Source: Isoptericola halalbus
GTDB taxonomy: Bacteria; Actinomycetota; Actinomycetes; Actinomycetales; Cellulomonadaceae
Direction: 5' to 3'
Assembly: GCA_009663185.1 (NCBI GenBank)
Contig: VJZX01000002.1
Coordinates: forward strand, 145,587-179,018
Length of the DNA: 33,432 nucleotides
Positions 2,023-26,466 of the stretch are shown piece after piece; position 1 is the stretch's first letter, and the number at the start of each line of letters is the position of its first letter. A model generated the notes under the pieces. It saw only the letters and a list, made by a program, of their open reading frames with translations, was not told the origin of the DNA and made no database searches. A program made the translations under genes and the position numbers.

Positions 2023-2050
2023 GTCGCGCGCCGCGGTGCAAGGATTAACC

Positions 2051-7774: not shown

Positions 7775-8009
7775 CCACCGTTTCCCCACGACGCCACCGG
7801 GGAAGCGGCTGGCCGGTTCAGCGGCGGGCCGGGCCCGCCAGTGCCGCGGCGACGGCGCCGCAGCAGGTAGTCGCTGGCCTGTCGATCGACGGTGAACTGC
7901 GCATCGTCTGGCTCGTGCCCCCGGCGGCGGAGTACACGGGCGCCCGGGACCCTCGTGCGGCATGTAGGCAGTGCAGACGTGCGTGACCGGACCCGACCGT
8001 GATGCTCAG
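7775..8009. other. Short degraded stretch
   Basis: No intact frame. It is probably the decayed continuation of the Nudix-like scrap on the minus strand, but all three frames are interrupted or lack recognisable motifs. Confidence 0.35.
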
Positions 8010-8195: not shown

Positions 8196-8206
8196 CTCCG
8201 GCTCAG

Positions 8207-8230
8207 GGAGCCGGTCACTGGACCGGCTCC
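8207..8230 (-). terminator. GC-rich hairpin over the GH39 stop codon
   Basis: A perfect 10-bp stem (GGAGCCGGTC / GACCGGCTCC) with a 4-nt loop overlaps the GH39 stop codon at 8215-8217. There is no run of T after it, so it would be an atypical, U-less terminator or an mRNA 3' end stabiliser. Confidence 0.35.
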
Positions 8231-9939
8231 AGCAGGAGCAGGGAGACGGCGGGGAGCGGGAGCTGTACGTCGAGCCGGAGCCCACTGCCGTGCGCCTCGA
8301 CGCGGCGCGGAGGCTCCAGCTCGTGCAGTCCCTGGCGCTCCCGGATCGCGGCCAGCTGGTCCTTGGTCGGCAGCTGGGGAGAGCCGGCGGCGACCCAGGC
8401 GGTGTGGGAGTTGCTGTGTTCGGCGTCGATCCGCAGATGGCTCAGCACGTAGGCGTCGGCGTCGAGACCGGCGACGTCGACGGCCACGTCTGCGGAGGTG
8501 TCATCCCGCTGATGCTGATCGTCCGTGTGCCGCCACACGAGGATCGCGACGGTGCCCGACGACGAACGTGAGGCCAGCGTGTCGATCTCCTCAGGCATGC
8601 TGCGTCCGTCGGCCTCGTCCAGCAGCGTGACGGAGTGCTGCGCGTCCGACACCGCCTGGATCCGACGCTCACCGAGCCGCGCCAGGGCACGGTACGCGTT
8701 CAGCAGCGGCTTCTCGACACCACCGGCCGTCAGGAAGGCCCGGGTGCCTTCGAAGTAGCGTTCGCCCTCGAAGTAGAAGCTCCACGAGGTGGCCTGCTCG
8801 ACCTGGGCGGTCTCGAGCTCGTTGAGGTCCAGGATCTTCTTCATGAGCTTGATCTGGAACACCGGGTAGAACTCGGTGTTCTGGAACCGGAAGTTCGCGT
8901 TGTCGTAGACGCTGTAGTGCGCCGGGACGCCGGCGTCGCACTCGTCCACGATCATCGGCAGGTCGTGGTATTCCTCGAACTCTGCGACGACACGTAGCAT
9001 CCGGCGGATCTCGAAGAGCATCTTGTGCGCCGAGGGGTTCTGCTTCTCGGGCGCCTCTCCGCCAGTAGGCCCGTAGACGCGCCACGGCGTGAACGCCGAG
9101 CCCTTGGTGTGGAAGGAGACGAAGTCCAGCGGGTCGGCCTGGTCACGGGTGTGCCGCAGAAATCCTCGGAGGAACTCGACTCCGGCACCGGTCACCGCCG
9201 GACCACCGACCTTGGCGTCCGGGAGCACGCTCCGGACGGCACGAGCGGTCACCGAGTAGAGCTCGTAGAACTCCTGCGGCGTCCCTCTCCAGTAGAAGAT
9301 GTCCGGCTCGTTCCACAGTTCCCACAACCAGGTGCCCACCTCCTGTGCCCCGTACCGTTCGAGGCAGTGCGCCGCGTGTGCGGCCACCAGGTCGCCCCAG
9401 CGCCCGTAGTCCTTGGGCGGGTACGCCCACGCTCCGGCCTCGTAGCTGCTGTACACGGTCGGGCTCGGGACGACGGCCAGGTCCGACGCCTCGTGGGGCA
9501 GCAGGTCTCGCGGGGTGAAGGCGAGCTCGACAAGGACATGGTGGCCGGCGTCGACGATCGCGTCGTACGCCTGGTCGACGATGGTGAAGTCGTAGAACGG
9601 ATTGCCGTCGGCGTCCTCGTGGTAGACGTTCCCGCTACCCCAGTGGGGGATCCCGAAGCCTGTGCCGGAGCAGAACACGTAGTGCGGGCGGACGTGGAAG
9701 CCGCGCTCCGTCAGGTGCCCGAACGTCTTCAGGAGCTGGCGCCCCGTGGCCGTGTACGTCCAGTTGATCTCGTCGTAGCCGATGCTCTCCCAGACTCGCT
9801 TCAGGGTGCCCTGGTCGACCCCGGCATCCACGGCGACGTGAGCGCGGCGGACGTGGGGGGCGCTAGGGTCGCTGGGCGCCGAGCGGGGGAAGATCACGTC
9901 CGTTCCGATGCCTGGATTGGGATCAACTCTCGAGTTCAC
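8215..9939 (-). CDS. GH39 family glycoside hydrolase (beta-xylosidase-like)
   Basis: A protein of about 574 residues with a TIM barrel. WELWNEPD supplies the acid/base Glu (about residue 211 from the GTG start) and MIVDECDAG the nucleophile Glu (about residue 333), the GH39 pattern of beta-xylosidases; the barrel is followed by a beta-sandwich (from about 430). No signal peptide, so it is cytoplasmic. I prefer GTG 9939-9937 because AAAGG at 9952-9948 is 8 nt upstream; ATG 9957-9955 is an in-frame alternative with no such site. It is transcribed away from the mannosidase genes and sits beside the N-glycan-type locus, so a beta-xylose linked to mannose is a reasonable but untested substrate. 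GH39 also contains alpha-L-iduronidases. Confidence 0.85.
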   Translation of the reverse strand: MNSRVDPNPGIGTDVIFPRSAPSDPSAPHVRRAHVAVDAGVDQGTLKRVWESIGYDEINWTYTATGRQLLKTFGHLTERGFHVRPHYVFCSGTGFGIPHWGSGNVYHEDADGNPFYDFTIVDQAYDAIVDAGHHVLVELAFTPRDLLPHEASDLAVVPSPTVYSSYEAGAWAYPPKDYGRWGDLVAAHAAHCLERYGAQEVGTWLWELWNEPDIFYWRGTPQEFYELYSVTARAVRSVLPDAKVGGPAVTGAGVEFLRGFLRHTRDQADPLDFVSFHTKGSAFTPWRVYGPTGGEAPEKQNPSAHKMLFEIRRMLRVVAEFEEYHDLPMIVDECDAGVPAHYSVYDNANFRFQNTEFYPVFQIKLMKKILDLNELETAQVEQATSWSFYFEGERYFEGTRAFLTAGGVEKPLLNAYRALARLGERRIQAVSDAQHSVTLLDEADGRSMPEEIDTLASRSSSGTVAILVWRHTDDQHQRDDTSADVAVDVAGLDADAYVLSHLRIDAEHSNSHTAWVAAGSPQLPTKDQLAAIRERQGLHELEPPRRVEAHGSGLRLDVQLPLPAVSLLLLEPVQ

Positions 9940-9989
9940 TACCTGCACCTTTCGCATTCAGTGGCCCGCGGGCCGGGCCGTCGTCTTCG

Positions 9990-10345: not shown

Positions 10346-11085
10346 CTGTGCGCGCGGCATCAGCGGCCGGACGAGCGCGCGGGCCTAGCTCTCCCCACGG
10401 ATCGGGCCCACGCGATCACCCGAGCAGCAGCCGAAGTTGACCCTTGCGCGTGCGGCAGCGGAGGACCCAGGTCGTCGCGCGGGAGCATGAAGCTGCTGTC
10501 TGTTCTTCGCGGGGCCGGGCAGCGGCGGACGCGAAGACGAGCATGTCTGCGTCGAAGCGAACCCACCCTCAGAGACTGGCCGCAGCCGTGAGCCAGCCGA
10601 GATGTGGCCTGGTCTAGTGACCGAAGCTAGAATCCATGCTGGCTGCTTCCTCGGGTGGGGGAGCAGCGCCAGTCCCTGGAACTGGCCCCGGCTCGCTGAG
10701 AAACGTAGGCCCACCACGGGCCCACGATGCGGTCCGAGGCGGAGAAGGCGCCGGTCAGACCGTCGGGCGTTGCGGTTTCGAACCCAATATCGCCCACTCT
10801 TCCCGTCGGGGCCTCTGACCAGCGAGTTCGCAGGTCAGAGGCCCTTGGCATCTGACTCCTGTGGACACGGGTGGCCAGATATGCCCTTCGCGGGACCACG
10901 CTGGTCCCACCGGGCCGCGCCGCCGCCATGGTCGCCATGGAGGCGGGTTGCTGCGACAAGGGGGTGGTGGGGCGCTCGCGTAGCCGGTTGAGACCTCGCG
11001 CTGACGTCGGATACGCGGGCGGTGAGGCACCGTCGTCCGCGGGTGCCACCGTCCCACGGCGTCACCGTGCCGTGGACCGCTGGCT
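10346..11085. other. Non-coding stretch upstream of the GH125 gene
   Basis: No credible gene. It contains a strong hairpin (10809-10844), a tRNA T-loop-like GGTTTCGAACCC at 10774-10785 without the rest of a tRNA, and an inverted repeat at 11054-11075 next to the presumed GH125 promoter. Confidence 0.5.
10809..10844. repeat. Perfect 12-bp inverted repeat (hairpin)
   Basis: GGGCCTCTGACC and GGTCAGAGGCCC flank the 12-nt AGCGAGTTCGCA, which itself holds a small GCGA/TCGC inverted repeat. No T-run follows on either strand. It could be a U-less bidirectional terminator or a remnant of a mobile-element end. Confidence 0.6.
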
Positions 11086-11091
11086 TATGGT
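11054..11091 (+). promoter_or_regulatory. Candidate promoter and operator of the GH125 gene
   Basis: TATGGT at 11086-11091 fits the actinobacterial -10 pattern TANNNT and ends 8 nt before the ATG at 11100, so the transcript may begin at or next to the start codon. An inverted repeat CCACGGC-8 nt-GCCGTGG (11054-11075) covers the -35 area and could bind a regulator. It differs from the palindrome upstream of the ROK gene. Confidence 0.35.
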
Positions 11092-11099
11092 CGACGGCC

Positions 11100-12500
11100 A
11101 TGAGCGACCGCAACGTTTCCGTCCCGCCGGCGGCGGCCGGTCCGCCGCCTGACGCTGGCTGGACCCGAAAGGTGCTGACCGACGACGTCTTAGACGCCTG
11201 GACAGAGCGCGTCCGCACGGCGGTGCCTGGCACGGAGGTGCCGCGCGTGTTCCGCGAGTGCCTCGCGCGGACGATCCGCCGTAGCCTGATCCGCCTCGAC
11301 TCCGGCGAGGTCGCGGTGATCACGGGCGACATCCCCGCGATGTGGCTGCGCGACTCCAGCACGCAGATGTGGCCGTACCTCACTCTCGTCGCGAGCGACC
11401 CCCGGGGCCCGCTGGCGGACGTGCTCGTCGGCGTGGTCCTTCGGCAGCTCGCGCTCATCGTGCACGACCCCTATGCGAACGCCTTCAACCTCCGGCGCGA
11501 CGGCCGGGCGCACGACCCTCGCGACGAATGGGGCGAGCACCTGGCGGACCCGTTGGTCTGGGAGCGGAAGTACGAGGTGGACTCCTTGTGCTTTCCGCTG
11601 CAGCTGGCGGCGCGGCTCTTCGAGGTGACGGGGCGGCGGGAGGTGCTCGGACCGGCACTCAAGGCGGCGCAGGTCGTGGTCCGGACGCTGCGGACAGAGC
11701 AAGACCATGAGCGATGCTCGCCCTACCGGTTCGTCAGGCCCGGCGGCAACGCGCTCGACACCCTGCCCCGCGGGGGTCGGGGAAGTCCGGTCGCGGTCAC
11801 CGGAATGACCTGGTCCGGGTTCCGTTCGAGCGACGATGCGTGCACCTACGGCTACAACGTGCCGGCGAACCTCCACGCAGCAGCCGTGCTCGACCACCTC
11901 GGAGCGCTGGTCGATGCAGCCTCGGACGAGTCCAGCCGGGCCCTCGCGGCCGAGGCGCGCGCCCTCGCCCGTAAACTGCGCGCCGGGGTCGAGCAGCACG
12001 GCGTCGTCGTGCACCCTGTGCATGGCGAGATGTACGCCTACGAGGTCGACGGACTCGGCGCGCACCTGCTCATGGACGACGCGAACCTTCCAAGCCTGCT
12101 TTCACTGCCCCTCGTTGCAGGCGTGCCGGAAGACGACGCGCGGTACCTGCGCACCCGCCGCTTCGTGCTCTCTCCAGAGAACCCCACCTACACGCGGGGA
12201 GCCGCGCTCGGGGGCGTGGGCAGTCCCCACACGTGGCCCGGCTGGGTGTGGCCCATCGCTGTCGCGACGGACGGGCTCACAACCCAGAACTGCTCGCGTC
12301 GCGTGGAGCTGCTCCGGACGCTTGCGGCGACCACGGCCGGTACCGACCATATGCACGAGAGCGTGGACGCCGACGACCCCACCCACTTCACGCGTCCCTG
12401 GTTCTCGTGGGCGGACTCGATGTTCTGCCTGCTCGCGCTCGCGACAGCCGCACCCGACGTGTACGTGCCACCTGCGGCCCCTCGAGCTGAGTCCGCCTGA
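11100..12500 (+). CDS. GH125 exo-alpha-1,6-mannosidase
   Basis: A 466-residue (alpha/alpha)6-barrel enzyme that removes terminal alpha-1,6-linked mannose. Family blocks: IPAMWLRDSSTQMWPYL near 80, WERKYEVDSLCFPLQLA near 158, MTWSGFRSSDDACTYGYNVP around 238-257 (Asp 245/246, one expected to be the general acid), and TDHMHESVD around 416 (Glu 420, expected general base) followed by FTRPWFSWADS. No signal peptide. ATG 11100 is preferred over upstream in-frame starts since homology begins after it and no ribosome binding site is visible; a leaderless transcript is possible. It lies 84 bp before the ROK regulator on the same strand, and characterised members act on the alpha-1,6 arm of N-glycans or on fungal mannan. 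Confidence 0.92.
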   Translation: MSDRNVSVPPAAAGPPPDAGWTRKVLTDDVLDAWTERVRTAVPGTEVPRVFRECLARTIRRSLIRLDSGEVAVITGDIPAMWLRDSSTQMWPYLTLVASDPRGPLADVLVGVVLRQLALIVHDPYANAFNLRRDGRAHDPRDEWGEHLADPLVWERKYEVDSLCFPLQLAARLFEVTGRREVLGPALKAAQVVVRTLRTEQDHERCSPYRFVRPGGNALDTLPRGGRGSPVAVTGMTWSGFRSSDDACTYGYNVPANLHAAAVLDHLGALVDAASDESSRALAAEARALARKLRAGVEQHGVVVHPVHGEMYAYEVDGLGAHLLMDDANLPSLLSLPLVAGVPEDDARYLRTRRFVLSPENPTYTRGAALGGVGSPHTWPGWVWPIAVATDGLTTQNCSRRVELLRTLAATTAGTDHMHESVDADDPTHFTRPWFSWADSMFCLLALATAAPDVYVPPAAPRAESA

Positions 12501-12525
12501 TCAACGTCCCGCTTCGGTCGGGCTC

Positions 12526-12565
12526 TTCCCAACGACTTAACTAACAGTTAAGGTGCCTGTTAGTT
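12526..12565 (+). promoter_or_regulatory. Palindromic operator and probable promoter of the ROK-led operon
   Basis: TTAACT-AAC-AGTTAA (12537-12551) is a perfect palindrome around a 3-nt centre. Overlapping it, AACTAACAG (12539-12547) and CTGTTAGTT (12557-12565) form a second perfect 9-bp inverted repeat with a 9-nt spacer. This A/T-rich island in GC-rich DNA resembles known ROK/NagC/XylR-type operators. TAAGGT (12549-12554) is a plausible -10 with TTCCCA (12526-12531) 17 bp upstream as a weak -35, so the operator would cover the -10 box and repress. Confidence 0.6.
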
Positions 12566-12584
12566 GGCGAAGGGAAGGACGGCG

Positions 12585-13805
12585 ATGGCGCCGAAGGCTC
12601 TGTCAGTCAATGAGCTCCGTGTCATAGAACTGCTGCTCGCGCACCGATCCCTGTCCCGCAGCGATCTCGCCGCAGCCACGGGCCTGTCGAAACCTGCGAC
12701 CAACGACCTCATCGCGAGGCTCGTCGAGGCCGGGCTGGTGGTTGAGGCCGGGGAGGTCGGAACCTCGCGGCGCGGCCCGAACGCGATGCACTTCAGGGCG
12801 GCGACCGACGTCGCTGTCGTGGCGGGCGTCGAGATGCAGCCGACCCATGTGAGCGCTGTGGTCGCCGATCTCGCGGGTGACCCGCTCGGTGAGGTCGACG
12901 TACCGCGCAGGGGAGAGGATGCGGCAGCGCACGTCGCGACGGCCGTTCGCGCTGCCGCGATCGAGGCCGGCCACGAAACGGCGCACCTGTGGCAGGTCGT
13001 GGTTGGCACCCCGGGCGTCGTCACGCCCGACGGCGACCTCGACTTCGTCTCTGAGCACCCCGACTGGCGCACCGGGCAGCGCGACCGACTCGCCACTGCG
13101 CTGCGTTGCCCCGTCCATCTCGAGAACGACGTCAACCTCGCGGCGCTGGCCGAGGCGCGCACGGGTAACGCTCGCGACGCTGCCAGCTTCACCCTGCTGC
13201 GCCTCGACGAAGGTCTCGGCGCCGCCACCGTGCTGGACGGCGCGCTTCTGCGCGGTGCCCACGGGTACGCCGGGGAGTTGGGCCTGGCACCCGCCGGGTT
13301 CGACGAGGCGCCGATCGGCACCCCGGACGCGGGCCTGCAGTGCAAGCTCGGCCGGCGCGCCTTGCAAGAGCTGCTTGGCGACTGCGATCTCGGCGGACGC
13401 ACTCCGGAGCAGGTGCTGGCCAGCGACGACCCCGCCGGCGCCGGGTTCCGGTCCGAGGTGGCCCGCCGTGTCGCGGTTGTCGTGACCACAGTGTGCACCC
13501 TGCTGGATCCCGAGCTCGTCGTGCTGACAGGCTCCGTCGGCATCGCAGGAGGCGATCGGCTCGCGCATGCTGCCGAGACCCTCATCCGGGGCGCCTCTCC
13601 ATTGCGCCCGCGGGTCGTGCCGACCGGCATCGGCGCCGGCGCCGGCGTGACGGGCGCGCTGGCTCTGGCCGTGGATCACGCGCGGGACCACGTGTACGGA
13701 CGCCCCGCACACCGCAGACCCCAGTCGCCTACGACCATCCGCTCGAAGTCTTCTCAGCTGTCACCTACTCGCCTCGATGCCCGGACCCGCCGGTCGCCGA
13801 GCTAA
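12585..13805 (+). CDS. ROK-family transcriptional regulator
   Basis: A 406-residue repressor-type ROK protein. Residues ~6-60 form a winged helix-turn-helix (VNELRVIELLLAHRSLSRSD, TGLSKPATNDLIARLVEAGL); the rest is a sugar-kinase-like ROK domain with the LENDVNLAALAE motif (Glu180-Asn184) and GAHGYAGELGLAPAG. The usual zinc-binding CxCGxxGCxE cluster is missing: in its place is PDAGLQCKLGRRAL, with a single Cys. ATG 12585 follows AAGGA at 12575-12579. An A/T-rich palindrome lies 20-48 bp upstream, so autorepression is likely. The next gene, a sugar-binding lipoprotein, begins 20 bp later, so the regulator is probably the first gene of the operon. The inducer is likely a mono- or disaccharide from the imported glycan. 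Confidence 0.88.
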   Translation: MAPKALSVNELRVIELLLAHRSLSRSDLAAATGLSKPATNDLIARLVEAGLVVEAGEVGTSRRGPNAMHFRAATDVAVVAGVEMQPTHVSAVVADLAGDPLGEVDVPRRGEDAAAHVATAVRAAAIEAGHETAHLWQVVVGTPGVVTPDGDLDFVSEHPDWRTGQRDRLATALRCPVHLENDVNLAALAEARTGNARDAASFTLLRLDEGLGAATVLDGALLRGAHGYAGELGLAPAGFDEAPIGTPDAGLQCKLGRRALQELLGDCDLGGRTPEQVLASDDPAGAGFRSEVARRVAVVVTTVCTLLDPELVVLTGSVGIAGGDRLAHAAETLIRGASPLRPRVVPTGIGAGAGVTGALALAVDHARDHVYGRPAHRRPQSPTTIRSKSSQLSPTRLDARTRRSPS

Positions 13806-13825
13806 CCCACCAGAAAGGGCCTGCC

Positions 13826-15235
13826 ATGTCACGCAACACCCTTCGCCCGTCGGCCGGTCGCCGCCATGCCGCTCGTGCCAGTGCCGGCATCGCCGGCCTC
13901 TCCATGCTGCTCGCCGGGTGCGGCGTCGGTGGCGGTGGCAACTCGGCGTCCGCCGACGGCGACTCGCCCGCGATGGCTGGTCGGTGCGAGCTCAGCGAGG
14001 AGGTCGCGAACGACCAGCCGCTGAGCGGCGAGCCGTCGGGCACCATCACCTTCCAGACGACGGCGCTCAAGCAGTCGTTCTCGCCGTACTTCGAGTCGCT
14101 CATCGCCGCATTCGAAGAGAAGTACCCGGACGTCACCGTCGAGTGGCAGGACGACCCCGGAGACGCGGAGTTCACCCAGCGCCTGGTCACCGATGCCCAA
14201 GCGTGCGACTTGCCCGACGTCGTCAACCTCAACCAGACGACGGCGTATGCCCTCTACCGTGAGGGCTTCCTTCTCAACGTCTCCACGAAGGCTCCGGACT
14301 ACGGGGACGAGTTCATCCCGTCGATCTGGGACTCCCTGGTCTTCCCCGGCTCTGAGGACCACTATGTGATGCCCTGGTACTGGGGACTGACGGGGCTCCA
14401 GACCTTCAACACCGAGCTCATGAGCCAGGTGGGCCTCGACCCGGCATCCCCGCCCAAGTCCGTGATGGAGCAGTTCGACATGGCCGCCACCGTGGCCGAG
14501 AACTCCGGCGGCGACTTCTACGCTTTCGCCGCCAACCCGGCCCAGCGCGTGCCCAGCGACTGGCAGCTCATGGACGCGGAGGTCATCAACGAGGACGAGA
14601 CCGAGTTCACCTTCGCCGACGACCCGAAGATCCTCGAGTGGCTCGAGAAGTACGCGGAGGTCTACGCCGCGGGTGCGCTGCCCAGGGACACCTTGTCGAG
14701 CGACGTCGACGTGACGCAGCTCTACTCGGCCGGCGACGTCGTGTGGGGCTCCACGAATGCCTCGTTCCTGCGCTACGTCCAGGAGACGAACCCGGCGACG
14801 TACAAGGTCACCGGCGTCGCCCCTCTGCTCGACGAGCGCGGCACCGCGTTCCAGGACGGCCAGCTCATCGGCATCCCCTCTACCTCGGACAACCCCGTCG
14901 CCGCGCTCGCCTTCGCCCAGTTCCTCCTGAGCCCAGAGTGGCAGACGACGTTCGTCGAGGACGAGCGGATCTCCAACTTCCCGTCGACGTCCGAGTCGCT
15001 CGACATCCCAAAGTTCAGTGACTTCTCCGGCGGGACACCCCTCGACCGGGCCAACGAGATCTCCGTCGAGCTCGCGACGGACGCAAGCAACACGTTCATC
15101 TACAACTGGTCCGACGCGGTGAACTCCGCTGTCGTCTCGGAGCTGCAGCTCGCGATCGCGGGTGACAAGCCAGCCGCTGAGGCACTCCAGGATGCGGAGG
15201 ATGCGGCAAACGAGATCCTCGCGAACCAGGGCTGA
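13826..15235 (+). CDS. ABC transporter sugar-binding lipoprotein (CUT1 family)
   Basis: A 469-residue extracellular solute-binding protein. The signal peptide ends in a lipobox LLAGC with lipid-modified Cys32, followed by a Gly/Ser-rich linker. The mature part has the SBP_bac_1 pattern: SGTITFQTTALKQSFSPYFE, LIAAFEEKYPDVTVEWQDDP, CDLPDVVNLNQTTAYALYRE, YVMPWYWGLTGLQTFNTELM and FAQFLLSPEWQTTF. It should capture oligosaccharides at the outer membrane face and hand them to the two permeases. AAAGGG at 13814-13819 lies 6 nt before ATG 13826. Compare NgtS, the N-glycan-binding protein of Streptococcus pneumoniae, for role rather than proven homology. Confidence 0.92.
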   Translation: MSRNTLRPSAGRRHAARASAGIAGLSMLLAGCGVGGGGNSASADGDSPAMAGRCELSEEVANDQPLSGEPSGTITFQTTALKQSFSPYFESLIAAFEEKYPDVTVEWQDDPGDAEFTQRLVTDAQACDLPDVVNLNQTTAYALYREGFLLNVSTKAPDYGDEFIPSIWDSLVFPGSEDHYVMPWYWGLTGLQTFNTELMSQVGLDPASPPKSVMEQFDMAATVAENSGGDFYAFAANPAQRVPSDWQLMDAEVINEDETEFTFADDPKILEWLEKYAEVYAAGALPRDTLSSDVDVTQLYSAGDVVWGSTNASFLRYVQETNPATYKVTGVAPLLDERGTAFQDGQLIGIPSTSDNPVAALAFAQFLLSPEWQTTFVEDERISNFPSTSESLDIPKFSDFSGGTPLDRANEISVELATDASNTFIYNWSDAVNSAVVSELQLAIAGDKPAAEALQDAEDAANEILANQG

Positions 15236-15260
15236 AGCGCGCGGGCCGGGAGGGACGATC

Positions 15261-16247
15261 ATGACTACCACCTCCTCCGTAGAGCAGGTCCCCGGGGTGG
15301 CACATCGCTTGGCTCGCTCGGAAGGGACGGGGCGCGTCCGCCGGCCCCGTTCCACCGCCGGAGCGGGGATGTACCGCCCCTGGTGGATGCCCGTGCTGTG
15401 GATCGCTCCCACGGTGATCGTCATCGCGGCCTTCGGTGTCTTCCCGTTCCTGAACACGATCGCACTGTCGTTCACCAATGCCACTCCGCTCGGCGGCGGC
15501 GGTGACTGGGTGGGTTTCGCCAACTACGAGCGCTTGCTCACCGACGACAACTTCTGGCGTGCGACACGCAACTCCATCGTGTACGCGCTCGTCGCCGTCC
15601 CGCTGCTCGTCGTGCTGCCGCTGATGATGGCTCAGCTTGTCTACAAGTACCTGCCAGGCATCGGGTTCTTCCGCACGGCCTTCTACGCGCCGGTGGTGGC
15701 GTCGATGGTGGCGGTCGCCCTCGTATGGCAGAACCTGCTCAACGAGCGTGGGCCGATCAACACCGCCCTGGACAGATTCGGCGTGGTCGACTCACCCGTC
15801 CCCTTCCTCTCCAACCCGACGCTGTTGCTCCTGTCCGCGATCGCCCTGACCGTCTGGAAGGGGCTCGGCTGGTACATGATCTTCTACCTTGCGGCCCTCG
15901 CAAATGTGCCTCGTGAACTGTACGAGGCGGCCGAGCTCGACGGCGCAGGCACGGTGCGCCAGTTCATCCACGTCACGGTGCCCGGCGTCCGCCTCACGAT
16001 GCTTCTCATCGCGATCATGTCGGGCATCGGGTCGCTCCGGGTCTTCACCGAGATCTACGTCCTGGGAGGCGCAACCGGTGGTCCCGGCGGGCAGGTGCAG
16101 ACCCTGCCCTTCTACATCCGTGACACCGCGCTCGACCCGATCGCCGGCAACGCGGGATACGGGGCCGCGGTCTCGGTCGCGTTGTTCCTTCTGACGATCG
16201 GCCTTGCCGTGATGTCGCACAAGTTCGGTGCGAAGGAGGAGTCATGA
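15261..16247 (+). CDS. ABC sugar transporter permease 1 (MalF-like)
   Basis: A 328-residue inner-membrane permease with about six transmembrane helices, the first after a ~36-residue cytoplasmic tail (LWIAPTVIVIAAFGVFPFLN). The EAA loop that docks the ATPase reads LYEAAELDGAGTVRQFIHVT. ATG 15261 has GGAGGGA 5 nt upstream. Its last codons overlap the next permease start by 4 bp (ATGA). It would form the channel with permease 2. No ATP-binding subunit is encoded in the window, which is common for CUT1 importers served by a shared MsmK/MsiK-type ATPase. Confidence 0.92.
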   Translation: MTTTSSVEQVPGVAHRLARSEGTGRVRRPRSTAGAGMYRPWWMPVLWIAPTVIVIAAFGVFPFLNTIALSFTNATPLGGGGDWVGFANYERLLTDDNFWRATRNSIVYALVAVPLLVVLPLMMAQLVYKYLPGIGFFRTAFYAPVVASMVAVALVWQNLLNERGPINTALDRFGVVDSPVPFLSNPTLLLLSAIALTVWKGLGWYMIFYLAALANVPRELYEAAELDGAGTVRQFIHVTVPGVRLTMLLIAIMSGIGSLRVFTEIYVLGGATGGPGGQVQTLPFYIRDTALDPIAGNAGYGAAVSVALFLLTIGLAVMSHKFGAKEES

Positions 16248-18384: not shown

Positions 18385-20963
18385 TGCCCGACGCCGAGCC
18401 ACTCGAGCACGCCTGGACGGATCCCCACATCGAGGACCTCGCCGCAAATCCGTGGCGAGTCCGCCTGCTCGGCACGCACCTCGCACCCGGCACTCTGCCC
18501 CCCGAACCAACCGTGCACGCTGCGGCGGCAGCAGGAGTCGCCGCGACCGTGCCCGGGGCCGTCCATACCGACCTGATCGCCGCGGGGCTCCTGCCCGACC
18601 CTTTCAGGGATGACCATGCGGACACGGTCCGCTGGGTGGGGGAGAGCGACTGGGAGTACGCGACCACCGTCGATGTCGCACCGACGGCGGTGGAGCACAC
18701 CCGACGTGCGGAACTCGTCCTCGAGGGGTTGGCGACGCTCGCGACGGTCCGGCTGAACGGTACCGAGGTCGCGTCGACGGCGAACGCTTATCGCGCCTGG
18801 CACCTGGACGTGACAGATCTGCTGCGGGCCGGCCCCAACGACCTGACCGTCACCTTCGCCTCGGCGGCCCGCGCCATGCGGGAAGCCGACGACGGCGCGC
18901 TTCCTTACGACTGGGCCTACGCCTACAACCGCGTGCGCGTGATGGCTTGCAGTGTCGGCTGGGACTGGGCGCCGACGCTCGTCACCGCCGGCCTGTGGCG
19001 CGCTGCGCGCCTCGAGACGTGGTCCGGCGTGCGGCTGCGCGCCCGCGCCGCCACACGTCTGAGTGCGGACCTCACCGAGGGCACCCTCGTCGTCGACGTG
19101 GTCCTCGACGGCCCGGTGGCCGCGTCCGGCACGGTTCAGGTGAGCATGGGCGACCATGTCTGGCAGCGTGATGTCGACCGCGCCGCCCGCCTCGAGCTGC
19201 CGATGGCGGACCCCGCACCGTGGTGGCCACGCGGGTACGGCGACCCGGTGCGCCACGACGTCGTCATTCGGTTGGTCGGCACCGGACAAGAGCTGCACCG
19301 GCGGGTCGGGTTCCGTCACGTCACCCTGGACACGACACCAGATGCCTGGGGCCGTTCGTGCACCCTCGTCGTCAACGGCCAGGCCGTGTTCGCGCGCGGC
19401 GCGAACTGGGTGCCCGACGATCTGCTTCTCTCGCGCATGACACCTGCCCGCTACGCCGCTCGGGTCACGCAGGCGGTCCAGGCGGAGATGACGATGCTCC
19501 GGGTGTGGGGCGGCGGAACCTATGAGGACGAGGCGTTCTACGAGGCCTGTGACGAAGCGGGACTGCTCGTCTGGCAGGACTTCGCCTTCGCCTGTGCCGC
19601 CTACCCAGAGGACGAGCCCTTCGCCGGTGAGGTGGCCGCAGAGGCGAGGGAACAGGTCCGCCGGCTTGCGTCTCACCCGTGCATCGTCGTCTGGAACGGT
19701 TCCAACGAGACCTTGCTCGGCTGGGCCGACTGGGGGTGGCCTGAGCGCGTCGGGACGCGCGCCTGGGGAGAGGTCTACTACCGCGGCATCCTCCCGGACA
19801 TCGTCGCGCAGGAGGACCCCGGCACGCCGTACGTCCCCTCCAGCCCGTTCTCGACGACGCCCGGCGTCGGACCCAACGTCGACGGCGAGGGCAGCACCCA
19901 CCTGTGGGATCAGTGGAACCTGCTCGATCACACGACGTACCGCGACCACGTGCCCCGCTTTGCCGCAGAGCTCGGCTTCCAGGCGCCGCCCACGTGGCGC
20001 ACGCTCACCGGCGCCTTGTCCCTCGACCCGCGGCGCCTCACCCCGACGTCACCCGCCCTCGCCAGCCGGCAGAAGCAGTCGGGCGGCATGACGCACCTCC
20101 TGCGCCGGCTCGACGGGCACGTGCCGGACCCCGACGCGCTCGTCGAGGACCTGGACGACTGGCTCTGGGCGACGCAGCTGAACCAGGCCGACGCCCTGCG
20201 CACCGGCGCGGAACACCTCCGCGGTCACTGGCCTCGCACGGCCGGATGCCTCGTGTGGCAGCTCAACGACGCGTGGCCCGGCATCTCGTGGTCGCTCATC
20301 GACCACGACGGGCGCCCGAAGCCCGCCCTGTACGCGGTGCAACGCGCCTTCGCGCCCCGTCTCGTCACCCTTCAGCCCCGGGACGGCGCCACCGCCGTCG
20401 TCCTCGTGAACGACACCGACACGGCCTGGGACGCGAGAGTGCTCGTCCAGCGCGTTCACGTCACGGACGGCCCCGTGGCGGCCGCCGTCCTCGACGTCCC
20501 GGTCGGACCACGCGCGGTTGCTCAGCGCCACGTCCCGCCCGACGTCGCCCTTCCCCATGCCCGCCGGGAGGAGGTGCTGGTCGCCGACGCGCCCGACGAC
20601 CCGGCATCCGCCGGAGCCTCGGTCAGTGCGGGCGCGCCCACCCCGCGTGCGCGTCGGGCCGTGGCGGCGCTGTGCCGCGAGGACGGCGTGCGATGGCCCC
20701 GCGCGCTTCCCCACACCCGCGTGGTGCCCACCCCGGACGGCGTCGACGTCGAGATCACCGCCGATGTGCTCATCGCCGACGTGACGCTCCTGGCAGACCG
20801 CATCCATCCCGACGCCCGCGTCGCGGACGCGCTCCACACCCTCCTGCCAGGGGAGAGCGTCACCGTCCACGTCGCCCTGCCCCAAGCCCCGGATGCCGCG
20901 ACGCGGCGCGCACTCGTCCGTCCGCCCGTGCTGCGAACCAGGAATGACCTATGGCACCGATGA
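18384..20963 (+). CDS. GH2 beta-mannosidase
   Basis: An 859-residue enzyme with the GH2 plan: N-terminal jelly-roll (WRVRLLGTHLAPG, VPGAVHTDLIAAGLLPDPF, DWEYATTVDV), Ig-like domain, TIM barrel and C-terminal sandwiches. The acid/base Glu442 is in VVWNGSNETLLGW and the nucleophile Glu529 in RFAAELGFQ. VRVMACSVGWDWAP and WVPDDLLLSRMTPARYAARV are typical of beta-mannosidases rather than beta-galactosidases. It should hydrolyse Man-beta-1,4-GlcNAc left after alpha-mannose removal. GTG 18384 shares its G with the fucosidase stop (TAGTG), with GGAGG 4 nt upstream. Cytoplasmic: no signal peptide. Confidence 0.92.
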   Translation: MPDAEPLEHAWTDPHIEDLAANPWRVRLLGTHLAPGTLPPEPTVHAAAAAGVAATVPGAVHTDLIAAGLLPDPFRDDHADTVRWVGESDWEYATTVDVAPTAVEHTRRAELVLEGLATLATVRLNGTEVASTANAYRAWHLDVTDLLRAGPNDLTVTFASAARAMREADDGALPYDWAYAYNRVRVMACSVGWDWAPTLVTAGLWRAARLETWSGVRLRARAATRLSADLTEGTLVVDVVLDGPVAASGTVQVSMGDHVWQRDVDRAARLELPMADPAPWWPRGYGDPVRHDVVIRLVGTGQELHRRVGFRHVTLDTTPDAWGRSCTLVVNGQAVFARGANWVPDDLLLSRMTPARYAARVTQAVQAEMTMLRVWGGGTYEDEAFYEACDEAGLLVWQDFAFACAAYPEDEPFAGEVAAEAREQVRRLASHPCIVVWNGSNETLLGWADWGWPERVGTRAWGEVYYRGILPDIVAQEDPGTPYVPSSPFSTTPGVGPNVDGEGSTHLWDQWNLLDHTTYRDHVPRFAAELGFQAPPTWRTLTGALSLDPRRLTPTSPALASRQKQSGGMTHLLRRLDGHVPDPDALVEDLDDWLWATQLNQADALRTGAEHLRGHWPRTAGCLVWQLNDAWPGISWSLIDHDGRPKPALYAVQRAFAPRLVTLQPRDGATAVVLVNDTDTAWDARVLVQRVHVTDGPVAAAVLDVPVGPRAVAQRHVPPDVALPHARREEVLVADAPDDPASAGASVSAGAPTPRARRAVAALCREDGVRWPRALPHTRVVPTPDGVDVEITADVLIADVTLLADRIHPDARVADALHTLLPGESVTVHVALPQAPDAATRRALVRPPVLRTRNDLWHR

Positions 20964-23269
20964 CGGATCCCGACATCGCCGCGCGCGTTGCGGCATTGGT
21001 GAGCGACCTCACCCTCCGCGAGAAGGTCGGCCAGCTCAACCAACGCCTCCTCGGCTGGCACTGCGTGCGTCCCGGCCCGCGCGGCTGGGAGACGACCGAT
21101 GTGCTGCACGCGGAGGTCGAGCGCTGGGGCGGGCTCGGAGCCCTGTACGGGCTGTTCCGCGCCGACGCCTGGTCCGGGCGGCACTGGAGAAACGGCATTC
21201 GGCCCGAGGAGCGGGCCGAGGTTGCCGCGACGGTGGTGGCAGAGGTCTCCGCCGCGTCCCGGCACGGCATCGGCCCCCTGCTGGTGGAGGAAGCGCCGCA
21301 CGGGCACCAGGCCCTCGGCGCGGACCTGCTGCCCGTGAACCTCGCCGTCGGCGCCACCTGGGACCCGGACCTCTATGCCGAGGCATGCGCCGCGGTCGCG
21401 ACCGCTCTGCGCGCCGACGGCGTCCACCTCGCTCTCGTCTCCACGCTCGACCTGCTGCGCGACCCCCGGTGGGGCCGCGCCGAGGAGTGCTACACCGAGG
21501 CCCCAGCCCTCGCCGCCGCCTTTGCACGCGCGGCTGTGGTCGGCATGCAGGGCGCGGACCGCGCCCGGTTGGCGGACGGCACGGGCGTCGGTGTCGTCCT
21601 CAAGCACTTCGCCGCCCAGGGTGGTGGAGTGGGTGGGCGCAACGGCCACTCGGCGCAAGTCGGTCCGCGTGACCTGGCCGAGCTGCACCTGCCGGCCGCC
21701 CGGGCTGGTGTCGCGGCCGGCGCGGTCGCCGTCATGGCCGCGTACAACGACATCGACGGGGTGCCCTGCGTCGCCAACCGCGGGCTGCTGACAGAGCTGC
21801 TGCGCGGGCAGTGGGGCTTCGACGGGCTTGTCATGGCCGACGGGCTCGGCGTCGACCGCATCGTCGAGCAGATCGGTGCTCCCCTCCCGGCGGCTGCGGC
21901 TGCACTCGCCGCGGGCGTGGACCTGTCCCTGTGGGACCGCTCGTTTGCACTGCTCGAAGAGGCCGTCGGCGCAGCACCGGCTCTGGGGGCGGCCGTGGAC
22001 CTCGCCTGCGCGCGAGTCCTCACCGTGAAGGCACAGTTCGGCCTCATCCCAGGTCTGCAGGGCCGACGCGACGAGACGCAGCACGCCGCCCATCGATCGG
22101 GCGAGCCCTCCGAGTCCGGTACCAGTGCCCGCGACGCGCGCCGGCCGACGGTGGTGCTCTCACGCCGGCTGGCGGAGCGCTCCGCCGTGCTGGTCCGCAA
22201 CGGCAGCGGCGAAGCTGACCAGCCGCTGCCGCTGCGACCGGGCACGCGCTGGGTGGTCACCGGCCCCCGGGCCCACGACGTCGAATGCCTCCTCGGCGAC
22301 TACGTCCCGCCCCTGCCGCAGGATCGTCGCCGCTCGATCGCGACGGCCCTGCACGAGGCCGGCGAGCGCGCCGGCGTCACCATCCAGTCGCTCGAGAAGG
22401 GGGTCGAGGACCCGAGCACCGCGCTCGGCGAGGCAGACGGCGTCGTGGTCGTCCTCGGCGGCTCGAGCCATCGGGCCTACACCGACGCATTCGCCGACAA
22501 CGGGGCGAACATGGGCGAGACCGCGGCCGATTGCGGCGAGGGCGTGGACGTCGCCCGCGCCGTGCTTCCCCCGGGCCAGGTGGAATCGCTCGCGGCGGTC
22601 CGGGGGGCGACGCAGAGCCCCGTCGTCGCCGTCGTCGTCGCCGGCCGACCGTACGTGCTGACCGACGTTCTCGCGCACGCCGACGCCGTGCTCCTCGCCT
22701 TCTACCCGGGACCGCACGGCCCCGACGCACTCGCCGACCTCGTGCTCGGGGCAGCGCAGCCGGTCGGCCGCCTTCCCGCCACGCTGCCCGCCGACCCGAG
22801 CGCCCTGCCCGTCCAGCACGACGAGCGCATGGACGCGGCCGGTGTCTACCGCGACGTGCCGGACCCCGAACTCCGTCCGCTCGGTGCAGGTCTAGGCTAC
22901 GGACGCCTGCGGCTCGTCGCTTCCCGCGTCGAAGCCGTGCCCGGCGGCCTGCGCGTCGAGGCGGACGTGGCTGCCGCGGCCGGCGCCTGGGACGCCGAGG
23001 AAGTCATCCAGGTGTACGTCCGTCGCACGGGCGGCCTCGTGTGGCCGCGGACTGCGGAGCTGGCCGCGTGGCAGCGAGTCAAGGTCGCAGCCGGCGCGTC
23101 GGCACGCGTCGTGATCGAGGTCGGCGACGAGGCTGCGTTCATCCCGCCAGCCGCGGTCGCGCCGTTGGCCGCTCGCGCCGCCGTCGTGACGGTCGTGGCG
23201 GGTTCCGGTCGCGAGGCGCACACGGTCGAGCCGTACCGGTCCCCGTGGCAGGAGGAGGTCACAGCATGA
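20951..23269 (+). CDS. GH3 beta-glycosidase with C-terminal fibronectin-III-like domain
   Basis: A 772-residue three-domain GH3 enzyme. The N-terminal barrel has DPRWGRAEECYTE, VLKHFAAQGGGVGGRN and VMAAYNDIDGVPC; the nucleophile is Asp297 in LVMADGLGVDR, where the usual SDW is ADG. The second (alpha/beta) domain and a fibronectin-like domain (VIQVYVRRTGG, W-RVKVAAGASARV) follow. NagZ-type N-acetylglucosaminidases lack those domains, so this is closer to beta-glucosidases/xylosidases. ATG 20951 has AGGA 7 nt upstream; ATG 20960 is an alternative that would overlap the previous stop as ATGA. Activity is unknown: beta-xylose, beta-glucose or chitobiose-type links are all possible. Confidence 0.88.
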   Translation: MAPMTDPDIAARVAALVSDLTLREKVGQLNQRLLGWHCVRPGPRGWETTDVLHAEVERWGGLGALYGLFRADAWSGRHWRNGIRPEERAEVAATVVAEVSAASRHGIGPLLVEEAPHGHQALGADLLPVNLAVGATWDPDLYAEACAAVATALRADGVHLALVSTLDLLRDPRWGRAEECYTEAPALAAAFARAAVVGMQGADRARLADGTGVGVVLKHFAAQGGGVGGRNGHSAQVGPRDLAELHLPAARAGVAAGAVAVMAAYNDIDGVPCVANRGLLTELLRGQWGFDGLVMADGLGVDRIVEQIGAPLPAAAAALAAGVDLSLWDRSFALLEEAVGAAPALGAAVDLACARVLTVKAQFGLIPGLQGRRDETQHAAHRSGEPSESGTSARDARRPTVVLSRRLAERSAVLVRNGSGEADQPLPLRPGTRWVVTGPRAHDVECLLGDYVPPLPQDRRRSIATALHEAGERAGVTIQSLEKGVEDPSTALGEADGVVVVLGGSSHRAYTDAFADNGANMGETAADCGEGVDVARAVLPPGQVESLAAVRGATQSPVVAVVVAGRPYVLTDVLAHADAVLLAFYPGPHGPDALADLVLGAAQPVGRLPATLPADPSALPVQHDERMDAAGVYRDVPDPELRPLGAGLGYGRLRLVASRVEAVPGGLRVEADVAAAAGAWDAEEVIQVYVRRTGGLVWPRTAELAAWQRVKVAAGASARVVIEVGDEAAFIPPAAVAPLAARAAVVTVVAGSGREAHTVEPYRSPWQEEVTA

Positions 23270-26200
23270 GTCTGGAACCCGACGACGTCACCCTGGGGCG
23301 GATGCGCCGGTTCGTCGACGAACGCCTCACGCCGGCGCTCGACGCGGCCGCCGTGCCGCTGAACGTCGAGCTGTGGCAGGCACCAGGGTCATGGACCCGG
23401 GGGGAGCCGCCATCGTTCACGCACGTGGCGGCCCTGTCGGCGCGTGAGTTTGTCGCCGCCCCGCCCGGCACCTCGTGGGGGCCGCCGTGGTCGACGGCGT
23501 GGCTCAAGCTGCGGGGCGAGGTGCCCCTCGCGTGGGCGGACGCCGGCGCTGCCGGGCCCGGCGCCTCCACCGCCCGAGCCTCCGCCGGCGCCTCGACGCA
23601 CGACTGGGTCGATGTCGTGGTCGACCTCGGGTTCACCGGGGACACCCCGGGCTTCCAGGCCGAGGGAACCGCGCGGACCAGCACGGGTCGCGTCATCAAG
23701 GGGATCCAGCCCTTCAACCACCACGTACCCCTCGCAGCGCTGCTCGCCGACGACCCCGCCGCCGCGGACTGGCGGGCCGGCCGCGCGCCGTTCCCCGTCG
23801 ACCTCTGGGTGGAGGCAGCAGCCAACCCCGTGCTCGACCCCGACTTCACCTTCACACCCACCCCTCTCGGCTCGCCGGCGACGCTCCCGGCGGAGGCGCT
23901 CTACCGCCTCGGTGCCGTCGAGCTGCGGCGCCGCGACGCCGAGACCTGGGCTCTGTGGCACGACCTGCGGGTGTTGCGCGACCAGCTGGAATGCCTCGGC
24001 GGCACCAACCTGAGGCGTGGGCGCGTTCTGCGCGCGTTCTCGCGCCTCCTCGACGTCATGGCGATCGAGTCACCCGACGCCGTGCGGAGCAGCGCACCGC
24101 AGGGCCGTGCCGCGGTTGCGGCCGTGCTTGCGGAGGAGGCGGGGATCGCCGCGCACCGCGTCATCGCTGTCGGGCACGCCCACATCGACTCGGCGTGGCT
24201 GTGGCCGTACCGGGAGACCCGCCGCAAGGTGGTGCGCACGTACGCCAACGCGCTCTCGCTGCTCTCGGAGTACCCGGAAGTCACATTCGCGACGTCCTCC
24301 GCGCAGCACCTCGCCTGGGTCGAAGAGGCCGACCCCGACTTGTTCGGGCAGATCCGCGACGCGGTGCAGTCCGGACGGTTCCTTCTGGTCGGGGGCATGT
24401 GGGTCGAGGCGGACACGATGCTGCCCGGCGGAGAGTCGATGGCTCGTCAGTTCGTGGAGGGCATCACGTGGTTCGTGGAGCACCTCGGGGTGACGTGCGA
24501 GGAGGTGTGGCTGCCGGACTCCTTCGGCTACTCGGGCGCGTTACCCCAGATCGTGCGCCATGCCGGCGCACGATGGTTTCTCACGCAGAAGCTGTCGTGG
24601 AATGACACCAACCGGATGCCGCACCACTCCTTCACCTGGGAAGGAATTGACGGCTCGCGGGTCCTGGTGCACTTTCCGCCCGTCGACAACTACAACAGCG
24701 ACCTCAGCCCGCGCCAGCTGGCGCACGCTGAGCGCAATGTGGCGAGCTCGGACGCGACGTCGGCGCGCCTCTCTATGGCACCGGCAGGGTGGGGTGACGG
24801 CGGTGGTGGGCCCACGCGGGAGCACGCAGAGACGGCGCGTCGGCTCCGTGATCTGGCAGAGTCGCCGCGCGTGGCGTGGGGCACGCCTGCGGAGTTCTTC
24901 ACCGAGACGCAACGGCTCATGGCCGACGCCGCGGCGGGGGAGCCGACGCCCGTGTGGGTGGGCGAGATGCCACTTGAGCTGCACCGTGGCGTGAGCACCA
25001 CCCAGCAGCGTACGAAGGCGGGGAACCGGCACTGCGAACAGCTGCTGCGAGAGGCTGAGCTCTGGTGCGCGACCGCTACGGTGCGGACGGGCGCGCCCTA
25101 CCCGCTCGCGGAGCTGCGCGAGCTATGGCAAACGGTCCTGCGCCATCAGTTCCACGACGTCCTGCCCGGGTCTTCGATCGCCTGGGTGTACGACGACGTG
25201 GCGCGCGACCACCACCGCGTTGCGGCCCGCTGCGAGGACGTGATCTCTCGAGCCCTGGCGGCGCTGGTGCCCGCCGGTGAGGGGCACGTGCTGGCGAACG
25301 CCGGTCCGTTGCCCGTCGACGGGGTGCCGGCCCTCGGGTCTGGCCGAGCGCCGGAGGATGCTCCCCACGTGCCCCCCGTCACGCCTGTTCGCGAGGGCGC
25401 GACCTGGGTCCTCGAGGATGCCGCGACACGCCTGGTGGTGGACGCCGGGGGACACGTCGTCGCGCTCGTCGACCGGGCAAGCGGGCGGGACGCGGTTGGC
25501 CCCGCGGGCCCGGCCAACGCCGTGGAGCTGCACCGCGACCTCCCCAACCGCTGGGACGCGTGGGACGTCGACGCCCACCACGCGCGTGTCGTGCGCGGCG
25601 TGCCGGACGCCGACGTGCGTGCGGAGGGGCACGCCGTGGTGGTCACACGCTCCTTCGGGAGCTCGCGGCTGACCCAGCGACTGACATTGGCCGGCGGCGC
25701 CGTGCGCGTCGAGACCGAGGTGGACTGGCACGAGCGCGAGCAGCTCCTCATCCTCGCCTTCCCGCTTGATCTGCGGGCCGACGACGTCGCGGCCGAGACC
25801 CAGTTCGGGCACGTCCGCCGGCCCACGCACACCAACACCTCGTGGCAGACCGCCCGATTCGTGCATGCCACGCACCGATGGCTGCACGTGGCCGAGGGCG
25901 GGGTTGGCATCGCCGTCGCCAACCGCACGACGCACGGTTACGGGATCAGTCGGCACGTCCGCGAGGACGGCGGCACGACGACGCGGCTCGAGATCCACCT
26001 GCTACGCGGACCGCGCTACCCCGATCCCGGTGCCGACGTGGGTCGACACACTTTCACCCACCTCCTGCGACCCGGGGCGACACTGGGGGACGCCGTCGCC
26101 GACGGGTACGCCCTCGCGCTGCCGCTGCGCCGGGTCGCGGGCCGCGGCGAAGTGGCGCCGCTCGTGCGCGTGAGCGGCCAGGGTGTGCTTGCGGAGAGCG

Positions 26201-26466
26201 TGTCTCTCGCGCACGACGGGTCCGGTGACGTGGTGGTCCGTCTGTACGAGGCGCACGGCTGTCGGGCGGACGCTCGCGTGATCGTCGACGTGCCCGGCGG
26301 GCGGCTGTCACGCACCGATCTGATCGGACGGCCCACCTCGACGGACGGGAGCGTGGCGTGCCGTCTCTTCACGGAGGACGACCGCCCCGGTGCCCAGCTG
26401 ACCATGCGGCCGTTCGGCCTGCTCACCCTTCGGGTGGCACGCGGCGCGCAGGATGGTGCGCCGTGA
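23266..26466 (+). CDS. GH38 alpha-mannosidase
   Basis: A 1066-residue retaining, metal-dependent enzyme. An N-terminal sandwich (1-290) precedes the catalytic domain, which opens with VIAVGHAHIDSAWLWPYRET: His306 and Asp308 are expected zinc ligands. The nucleophile is Asp418 in VWLPDSFGYSGALPQI; GGMWVEADTMLPGGESMARQ and the helical domain with GVSTTQQRTKAGNRHCE and LRHQFHDVLPGSS (His630, likely zinc ligand) agree with the family. The C-terminal half is beta-rich. No signal peptide. ATG 23266 overlaps the GH3 stop (ATGA) and has GGAGGAGG upstream. It would remove alpha-1,2/1,3/1,6 mannose residues from imported glycans and closes the operon. Confidence 0.93.
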   Translation: MSLEPDDVTLGRMRRFVDERLTPALDAAAVPLNVELWQAPGSWTRGEPPSFTHVAALSAREFVAAPPGTSWGPPWSTAWLKLRGEVPLAWADAGAAGPGASTARASAGASTHDWVDVVVDLGFTGDTPGFQAEGTARTSTGRVIKGIQPFNHHVPLAALLADDPAAADWRAGRAPFPVDLWVEAAANPVLDPDFTFTPTPLGSPATLPAEALYRLGAVELRRRDAETWALWHDLRVLRDQLECLGGTNLRRGRVLRAFSRLLDVMAIESPDAVRSSAPQGRAAVAAVLAEEAGIAAHRVIAVGHAHIDSAWLWPYRETRRKVVRTYANALSLLSEYPEVTFATSSAQHLAWVEEADPDLFGQIRDAVQSGRFLLVGGMWVEADTMLPGGESMARQFVEGITWFVEHLGVTCEEVWLPDSFGYSGALPQIVRHAGARWFLTQKLSWNDTNRMPHHSFTWEGIDGSRVLVHFPPVDNYNSDLSPRQLAHAERNVASSDATSARLSMAPAGWGDGGGGPTREHAETARRLRDLAESPRVAWGTPAEFFTETQRLMADAAAGEPTPVWVGEMPLELHRGVSTTQQRTKAGNRHCEQLLREAELWCATATVRTGAPYPLAELRELWQTVLRHQFHDVLPGSSIAWVYDDVARDHHRVAARCEDVISRALAALVPAGEGHVLANAGPLPVDGVPALGSGRAPEDAPHVPPVTPVREGATWVLEDAATRLVVDAGGHVVALVDRASGRDAVGPAGPANAVELHRDLPNRWDAWDVDAHHARVVRGVPDADVRAEGHAVVVTRSFGSSRLTQRLTLAGGAVRVETEVDWHEREQLLILAFPLDLRADDVAAETQFGHVRRPTHTNTSWQTARFVHATHRWLHVAEGGVGIAVANRTTHGYGISRHVREDGGTTTRLEIHLLRGPRYPDPGADVGRHTFTHLLRPGATLGDAVADGYALALPLRRVAGRGEVAPLVRVSGQGVLAESVSLAHDGSGDVVVRLYEAHGCRADARVIVDVPGGRLSRTDLIGRPTSTDGSVACRLFTEDDRPGAQLTMRPFGLLTLRVARGAQDGAP

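Follow-up and report, generated by a model that had tools for sequence, protein, structure and literature searches.

A conserved glycoside hydrolase cassette of Isoptericola halalbus with a predicted role in the catabolism of plant- or invertebrate-type N-glycans

How gut bacteria and pathogens feed on N-glycans has been documented in detail. Xanthomonas campestris, which is Gram-negative, is said to cluster its plant N-glycan enzymes, including members of glycoside hydrolase (GH) families GH125 and GH2, in its Nix locus. In the literature that was found, as far as its accessible portions go, a plant-type route is described for Bacteroides in addition to this cited Xanthomonas cluster, both of them Gram-negative. 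The pneumococcus uses EndoD, the transporter NgtS-P1-P2 and a locus with GH38, GH125, GH29, GH20, ROK and GH92 (PMC5215778), Cutibacterium acnes has a GH38/GH5_18/GH20 locus in which GH5_18 is the confirmed enzyme for mannose (Man)-beta-1,4-N-acetylglucosamine (GlcNAc) (PMC6160142), and Bifidobacterium longum carries an operon of three GH38 genes and GH125 that is described for high-mannose glycans (PMC10154615). Here we describe a 15.4 kb cassette within a 33,432-nucleotide stretch of Isoptericola halalbus DNA (assembly GCA_009663185.1, contig VJZX01000002.1, positions 145,587 to 179,018; the whole stretch is called the window). The cassette is probably a catabolic operon for free N-glycans of plant or invertebrate type, with Man-alpha-1,3/1,6, core beta-1,2-xylose and core alpha-1,3-fucose as its predicted targets. 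This kind of system is already known from the pneumococcus, C. acnes and B. longum; what is new is the link of one GH3 group with N-glycan enzymes, the predicted plant-type set that Promicromonosporaceae hold in a single operon, and a cassette that seems to have been transferred.

The locus is like that of the pneumococcus in having a sugar-binding protein (SBP) and two permeases (P1 and P2), in the window predicted to import N-glycan fragments, GH38 and GH125 that look cytoplasmic, a ROK regulator and GH29. In the pneumococcus, however, the transporter has a locus of its own, release of the glycan falls to EndoD, the set includes GH20 and GH92, and the table in the accessible part of the paper has no beta-mannosidase or GH3 (PMC5215778), whereas in the window everything stands in one operon, with GH2 and GH3 added and no endoglycosidase. 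The C. acnes locus is likewise actinobacterial and cytoplasmic, with ATP-binding cassette (ABC) genes and both an alpha- and a beta-mannosidase; it differs in its GH5_18 beta-mannosidase, its GH20 (in strain 266 also GH18) and, in the accessible part of its description, in having no GH3 in the locus and its GH29 elsewhere (PMC6160142). With B. longum it shares the pairing of GH38 and GH125 in one actinobacterial operon (PMC10154615). The plant N-glycan pathway of Bacteroides massiliensis combines a GH3 beta-1,2-xylosidase and a GH29 core alpha-1,3-fucosidase, the roles proposed for the window's enzymes of these families, with an alpha-mannosidase, but that organism is Gram-negative, its GH3 and GH29 are periplasmic, and it has a PNGase and GH92; the two GH3 enzymes are compared by description only (PMC9522356). 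The accessible part of PMC11475409 describes no streptomycete N-glycan locus, and no Gram-positive beta-1,2-xylosidase of N-glycans was seen among the titles and abstract openings listed, a search that mostly lay outside subscription literature. The window's locus suggests that Gram-positive bacteria have a cytoplasmic route encoded in one operon, and it names a likely xylosidase group. It also provides a set of enzymes that can be tested for the removal of two allergy-linked plant marks, core xylose and core alpha-1,3-fucose; plant N-glycans are allergenic (PMC9522356).

A preliminary description of this DNA, made from its letters alone, had proposed a complete-looking cytoplasmic N-glycan degradation locus at 8215-26466, its genes packed together. 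All the families that it named (GH39, GH125, ROK, SBP with two permeases, GH29, GH2, GH3 and GH38) were recovered in Pfam scans above the curated cut-offs. Its boundaries did not hold, since the conserved unit is 11069-26485. The features of this unit are given below, with coordinates that depend on the starts chosen.

11069..26485, plus strand: conserved cassette, GH125 to GH38 (blastn against Antribacter soli, locus L109)
~11100..12500, plus strand: GH125, exo-alpha-1,6-mannosidase family, predicted cytoplasmic (Pfam PF06824, 439 bits; ATG at 11100)
12539..12565, plus strand: putative ROK operator, perfect inverted repeat AACTAACAG-N9-CTGTTAGTT (pattern search against shuffles)
~12585..13805, plus strand: ROK-family transcriptional regulator, winged helix and ROK (Pfam ROK 105.8 bits, MarR_2, HTH_24; start ATG)
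~13826..15235, plus strand: SBP, sugar-binding lipoprotein of the importer (Pfam; lipobox)
~15261..16247, plus strand: ABC permease 1, P1 (Pfam PF00528)
16244..17086, plus strand: ABC permease 2, P2 (Pfam PF00528; overlaps P1 by 4 bases)
17083..18384, plus strand: GH29, predicted alpha-L-fucosidase of alpha-1,3/4 type (Pfam PF01120; solved relatives)
~18384..20963, plus strand: GH2, predicted exo-beta-mannosidase (Pfam Glyco_hydro_2_N2; solved relatives)
20951..23269, plus strand: GH3 from the clade linked to N-glycan enzymes, putative core beta-1,2-xylosidase (Pfam GH3; solved relatives; conserved residues)
~23266..26466, plus strand: GH38 alpha-mannosidase, predicted cytoplasmic (three Pfam GH38 models: GH38N, mid, GH38C)

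From ROK to GH38 the intergenic gaps are 20, 25, -4, -4, -1, -13 and -4 bases with these starts. Because they are tiny or overlapping, ROK to GH38 is one coupled operon and not a product of chance packing. The tight packing described earlier is true of this run and not of GH39, which lies on the opposite strand approximately 1.1 kb from GH125. GH38 and GH125 alpha-mannosidases co-occur, and the SBP lipoprotein and both permeases are encoded inside the operon (Pfam, lipobox test). A lipobox was observed only in SBP among the eight proteins tested, and a crude hydropathy test found no strongly hydrophobic N-terminal stretch in the enzymes, consistent with the cytoplasmic location that had been suggested for them. 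The nearest structure to the predicted model of SBP was 6wpn, and its fold matches are generic oligosaccharide binders; NgtS was not among the matches listed, from which no conclusion on likeness is drawn. In scans of 8000-27000, no sigma-70-type promoter was found (0 against 0.5 expected) and terminators were at chance level (4 against 3.6).

The nearest copy of the locus was found in A. soli and not in Isoptericola. Window 11069-26485 matches A. soli in a single blastn alignment (15437 columns, 92.4%), and this colinear block begins 31 bases before GH125 and stops 19 bases past GH38. Beyond the block, the window flanks were compared with approximately 17.9 kb of A. soli sequence on the upstream side and 14.7 kb on the downstream side, and no second blastn alignment of more than 150 bases was obtained. 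For comparison, the window genome (4.1 Mb) and A. soli agree at 91-94% in the rpoB region and at 91.6% in an adjoining stretch, probably rpoC, with the remaining aligned stretches around it at 64-85%. Since a catabolic cassette is as similar as rpoB, yet its flanks differ and its ends are abrupt, the comparison points to a recent lateral transfer of the cassette, in one direction or the other; no mobile genes were seen. Aligned cassette parts are approximately 72-73% alike in the copies of Isoptericola, Promicromonospora and a further genome, G004. In the gap between GH39 and GH125, as anywhere in the window, neither ARAGORN nor Rfam found an RNA gene or tRNA. The stretch 10774-10844 contains a tRNA-like 3' end (GGTTTCGAACCC) and, after it, a perfect hairpin of 12 bp (10809-10820 and 10833-10844); this is possibly a remnant at a junction.

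A search of other actinobacteria for the same gene order had been proposed in the preliminary description. The order ROK-SBP-P1-P2-GH29-GH2-GH3-GH38 recurs unchanged in the six closest relatives that were read, namely A. soli, Promicromonospora AC04, P. soli, Isoptericola QY 916, Isoptericola sp. 4D.3 and G004, and differs in more distant GH3 loci. GH125 precedes ROK in A. soli and P. soli and follows GH38 in G004 and in Isoptericola 4D.3. In 4D.3 a member of the ROK family, which may be a sugar kinase, lies between GH38 and GH125. The contig of QY 916 stops just past GH38, and in AC04 the GH125 matches are on a separate contig.

Protein families that recur beside GH3 tie it to N-glycan enzymes. 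Homologues of GH3 were taken from a named scan (best 80 of 100 loci), a survey of relatives and a survey of the order, where they were found at E 1e-110 in 15 of 396 genomes, the window's own included. Proteins of the window and its relatives were then run as a panel against up to 10 kb on either side of each GH3. GH38/GH125, GH5_18/GH2 or GH85 were observed within 10 kb of GH3 in 41 of the 49 actinobacterial named loci, 37 of the 49 having both an alpha- and a beta-mannosidase and 16 having GH85; some named loci are short contigs, and the misses include loci cut at contig ends. Firmicutes GH3 loci had linked N-glycan families in 11 of 30 cases, probably an undercount since the panel queries are actinobacterial, and one spirochaete locus is excluded from both counts. 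A second set of GH3 loci was linked in 19 of 22 cases (at least seven loci are common to both sets). As a control, other GH3 genes of related genomes were linked in only one of 20 loci; this is a loose background, because the controls are largely one orthologous operon and the sole linked control is a partial GH2 match at a stretch edge. A GH3 tree of 88 rows (quick method, midpoint root) placed the window within a 38-row group with a Shimodaira-Hasegawa-like approximate likelihood ratio test (SH-aLRT) value of 100, and 33 of the 37 other rows are linked. The unlinked rows are loci L114, L123, L129 and L188. In a separate outgroup set, five rows (L011, L014, L017, L018 and L023) had the wrong strand and were disregarded. 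At L114 and L123, both from Microlunatus, a GH29 of the window's type (62-63%) adjoins GH3, ROK and permeases are present and no mannosidase lies within 10 kb; it is possible that these two loci serve only plant-specific decorations.

Several Streptomyces and Nonomuraea loci, as well as one of Isoptericola cucumis, have the order GH38-SBP-P1-P2-GH5_18-GH3-GH85. GH5_18 and GH85 directly flank GH3, for example in L027 and L115-L118. Solved structures served to check the GH5_18 assignment of two proteins, and GH85 of L027 was compared with endo-beta-N-acetylglucosaminidase structures. In bifidobacteria other than B. longum, GH3 of the window's group lies near GH5_18, GH38 and GH125. Locus L142 of B. 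reuteri has such a GH3, presumably the gene which a marmoset Bifidobacterium study places in an N-glycan island of that species and terms beta-glucosidase (PMC8406136). N-glycan islands of bifidobacteria that contain this GH3 may, we suggest, be directed at plant glycoproteins in the diet. In Enterococcaceae and Globicatella (L141, L144, L148, L153, L159 and L183), GH38 immediately precedes a related GH3, and several of the loci also have GH29 or GH20 close by; these loci are pneumococcus-like with an extra GH3.

GH38, GH125, GH5_18 and GH85 already cover high-mannose glycans, so that a beta-linked decoration would be left for GH3. Beta-1,2-xylose is the known decoration of this kind and is removed by a GH3 enzyme in B. 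massiliensis (PMC9522356). The nearest solved relative of the window's GH3, by sequence and by Foldseek, is the Thermotoga maritima beta-xylosidase. GH3 xylosidases are marked by Glu instead of Asp on strand c (PMC6987092), and Glu114 in the -1 subsite, where Asp otherwise stands, is a residue of this xylosidase type. Glu114, Asp297 and Glu530 are invariant in all 33 aligned rows, a selection from the window and the 80 named loci. An N-acetylglucosaminidase is disfavoured because Glu530 would be the acid/base. The fold alone, seen in a predicted model, cannot separate a xylosidase from a glucosidase, and the model is weak near the acid/base loop, where residues 509-524 have a predicted local distance difference test (pLDDT) score below 50. 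The best reading is that GH3, and not GH39, would be the core beta-1,2-xylosidase. The possible beta-xylose linkage of the preliminary description rests on GH3 and not on GH39. A broader proposal stands in even balance: that the GH3 group marked NQRLxGW ... EEAPHG supplies Gram-positive bacteria with the core beta-1,2-xylosidase for plant-type N-glycans, overlooked under the name "beta-glucosidase"; that Actinomycetota (Streptomyces, Bifidobacterium, Microbacterium, Promicromonosporaceae) widely break down xylosylated N-glycans inside the cell, as some enterococci perhaps do; and that the window holds a laterally transferred cassette of this kind with an alpha-1,3-fucosidase.

The best solved relatives of GH29 are 4zrx (304 bits), 8ayr (262), the alpha-1,3/4-fucosidase 3ues (254) and 6org (250); AlfC, an alpha-1,6 enzyme (PMC10154630), scored 58. 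By these scores the window's GH29 resembles alpha-1,3/4 fucosidases and not the alpha-1,6 type, which fits the core alpha-1,3-fucose linkage of plant or invertebrate N-glycans (PMC10154630). The nearest solved chains of GH2 are 5n6u, 6bye and 2vjx, each named beta-mannosidase. This supports a beta-mannosidase as a candidate for Man-beta-1,4-GlcNAc, a place that GH5_18 fills in related loci.

We infer the substrate and enzyme activities of the cassette. N-glycan fragments, set free by other organisms or by an unrecognised enzyme, would be bound by the lipoprotein SBP and imported via P1 and P2 with a shared ATPase. Leftover GlcNAc or chitobiose would be processed by genes outside the cassette, in the presumed order of events. 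ROK would sit on the inverted repeat at 12539-12565 and let go once a breakdown product binds. An N-glycan locus, as first described, agrees with the importer, with the predicted cytoplasmic exoglycosidases and with the recurrence of GH3 alongside GH5_18 and GH85; the claims of completeness and of GH39 membership were not borne out.

A general N-glycan locus for high-mannose or animal complex type, in which GH3 would be a broad beta-glucosidase- or hexosaminidase-like enzyme and GH29 would take antennary Lewis-type fucose, without xylose, appears rather unlikely. GH38, GH125 and a beta-mannosidase would be enough for any N-glycan core, and two observations weigh against the plant- or invertebrate-type proposal. 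The structural aligner VIA-align ranks a GH3 beta-glucosidase clearly above the xylosidase, which slightly weakens that proposal, and an alpha-1,3/4-type GH29 is also compatible with Lewis structures, which alpha-1,3/4-fucosidases also cleave. The published label of the B. reuteri gene as a beta-glucosidase speaks for the general locus as well. On the other side stands Glu for Asp at position 114 throughout the alignment, the xylosidase pattern, and Pfam scans of the cassette saw no GH20, galactosidase or sialidase family. We know of no beta-linked glucose in N-glycans, and two other GH38 loci are present in the genome, one with GH92 and GH5_18 and one with a LacZ-type GH2; these too count against the general reading.

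Use of fungal alpha-mannan, or of xylose-decorated fungal mannan, in place of N-glycans is very unlikely. Alpha-mannan breakdown also employs GH38 and GH125 (PMC10154615), and a habitat in soil would be plausible, but GH76 and GH99 were not found by Pfam scans of the cassette, the only part of the genome searched for them. Alpha-mannan would give the beta-mannosidase and GH29 no evident role, and GH85 and GH5_18 occur in related loci. We regard as most improbable a locus for plant beta-mannan or hemicellulose oligosaccharides, with GH2 beta-mannosidase, GH3 and GH39 as main enzymes. The nearest solved relatives of GH3 and GH39 are indeed beta-xylosidases and those of GH2 beta-mannosidases, but such a locus would leave GH38, GH125 and GH29 unexplained, GH39 lies outside the conserved unit, and Pfam scans of the cassette saw no endo-mannanase or galactosidase family.

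GH39 is a neighbour of the cassette:

8215..9957, minus strand: GH39, beta-xylosidase-like, outside the unit (Pfam PF01229, 175 bits)

The version in which GH39 belongs to the unit and serves as its beta-xylosidase is hardly credible. Its solved relatives favour it, and among five other genomes with both GH39 and GH3 the two lie within 10 kb of each other in G175 and G300, but they are far apart in G064, G079 and G227. No GH39 match was found in any of the five cassette-bearing genomes searched; the positive control for this query comes from another search, in which 27 of 396 genomes of the order matched, the window's own included. These orthologues are 68-76% alike. In nine of the nine GH39 loci read, neighbouring open reading frames match an aldo-keto reductase (AKR), two permeases and an SBP, each identified in one such locus, and other actinobacteria (L095-L103) have a conserved operon GH39-AKR-P1-P2-SBP. 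The window's GH39 stands alone, without these neighbours, and a comparison for repeats flanking it gave only short, chance-like matches. Since the limits of the colinear block, the five genomes and the separate operon elsewhere are consistent, GH39 is rejected as a cassette member.

The inverted repeat AACTAACAG-N9-CTGTTAGTT, just before ROK, has one match in the window and none in 100 shuffles (up to two mismatches). An identical repeat was observed upstream of ROK in A. soli, and two Promicromonospora have AATTAACAG-N9-CTGTTAATT upstream of ROK. Because both arms change symmetrically in Promicromonospora, a putative operator is favoured. Isoptericola and G004 copies contain no exact match of the repeat, which speaks against a universal site.

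The completeness claimed at the outset does not extend to release of the glycan. GH85 and PNGase A gave no match in the window's own genome, a control genome matching in each search; a PNGase F-type search matched neither the genome nor the controls and is hence uninformative on presence. The one GH18 of the genome was considered as a releasing enzyme and rejected, its nearest relative being chitinase B (1kfw). No hexosaminidase is encoded in the operon, and the genome's only GH20 sits on a different contig from the cassette. Because GH85 and PNGase A were not found and GH18 is chitinase-like, the strain may depend on other organisms to free the N-glycans that it uses, or may employ an unrecognised releasing enzyme.

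Two further GH38 loci were observed in the same genome. One (C28; L033 8529-20000, L107) reads GH38-SBP-P1-P2-LacI-GH5_18-GH92 and probably serves high-mannose glycans. The other (C15; L032 56-18694) has a LacZ-type GH2, a DeoR regulator, a PfkB kinase, an ABC set and a second GH29, and may serve galactose-bearing glycans. This suggests that the three GH38 loci of the genome are separate loci for different glycan types.

Directly after the cassette, on the opposite strand at 26851-27885, the window encodes a PHP and helix-hairpin-helix protein with PolX-like parts, in which no polymerase domain was seen. Outside the cassette, 2036-4279 encodes a STAND-type ATPase with a LuxR helix-turn-helix, and the gene next after it (4324-5694) is flavin adenine dinucleotide (FAD) monooxygenase-like.

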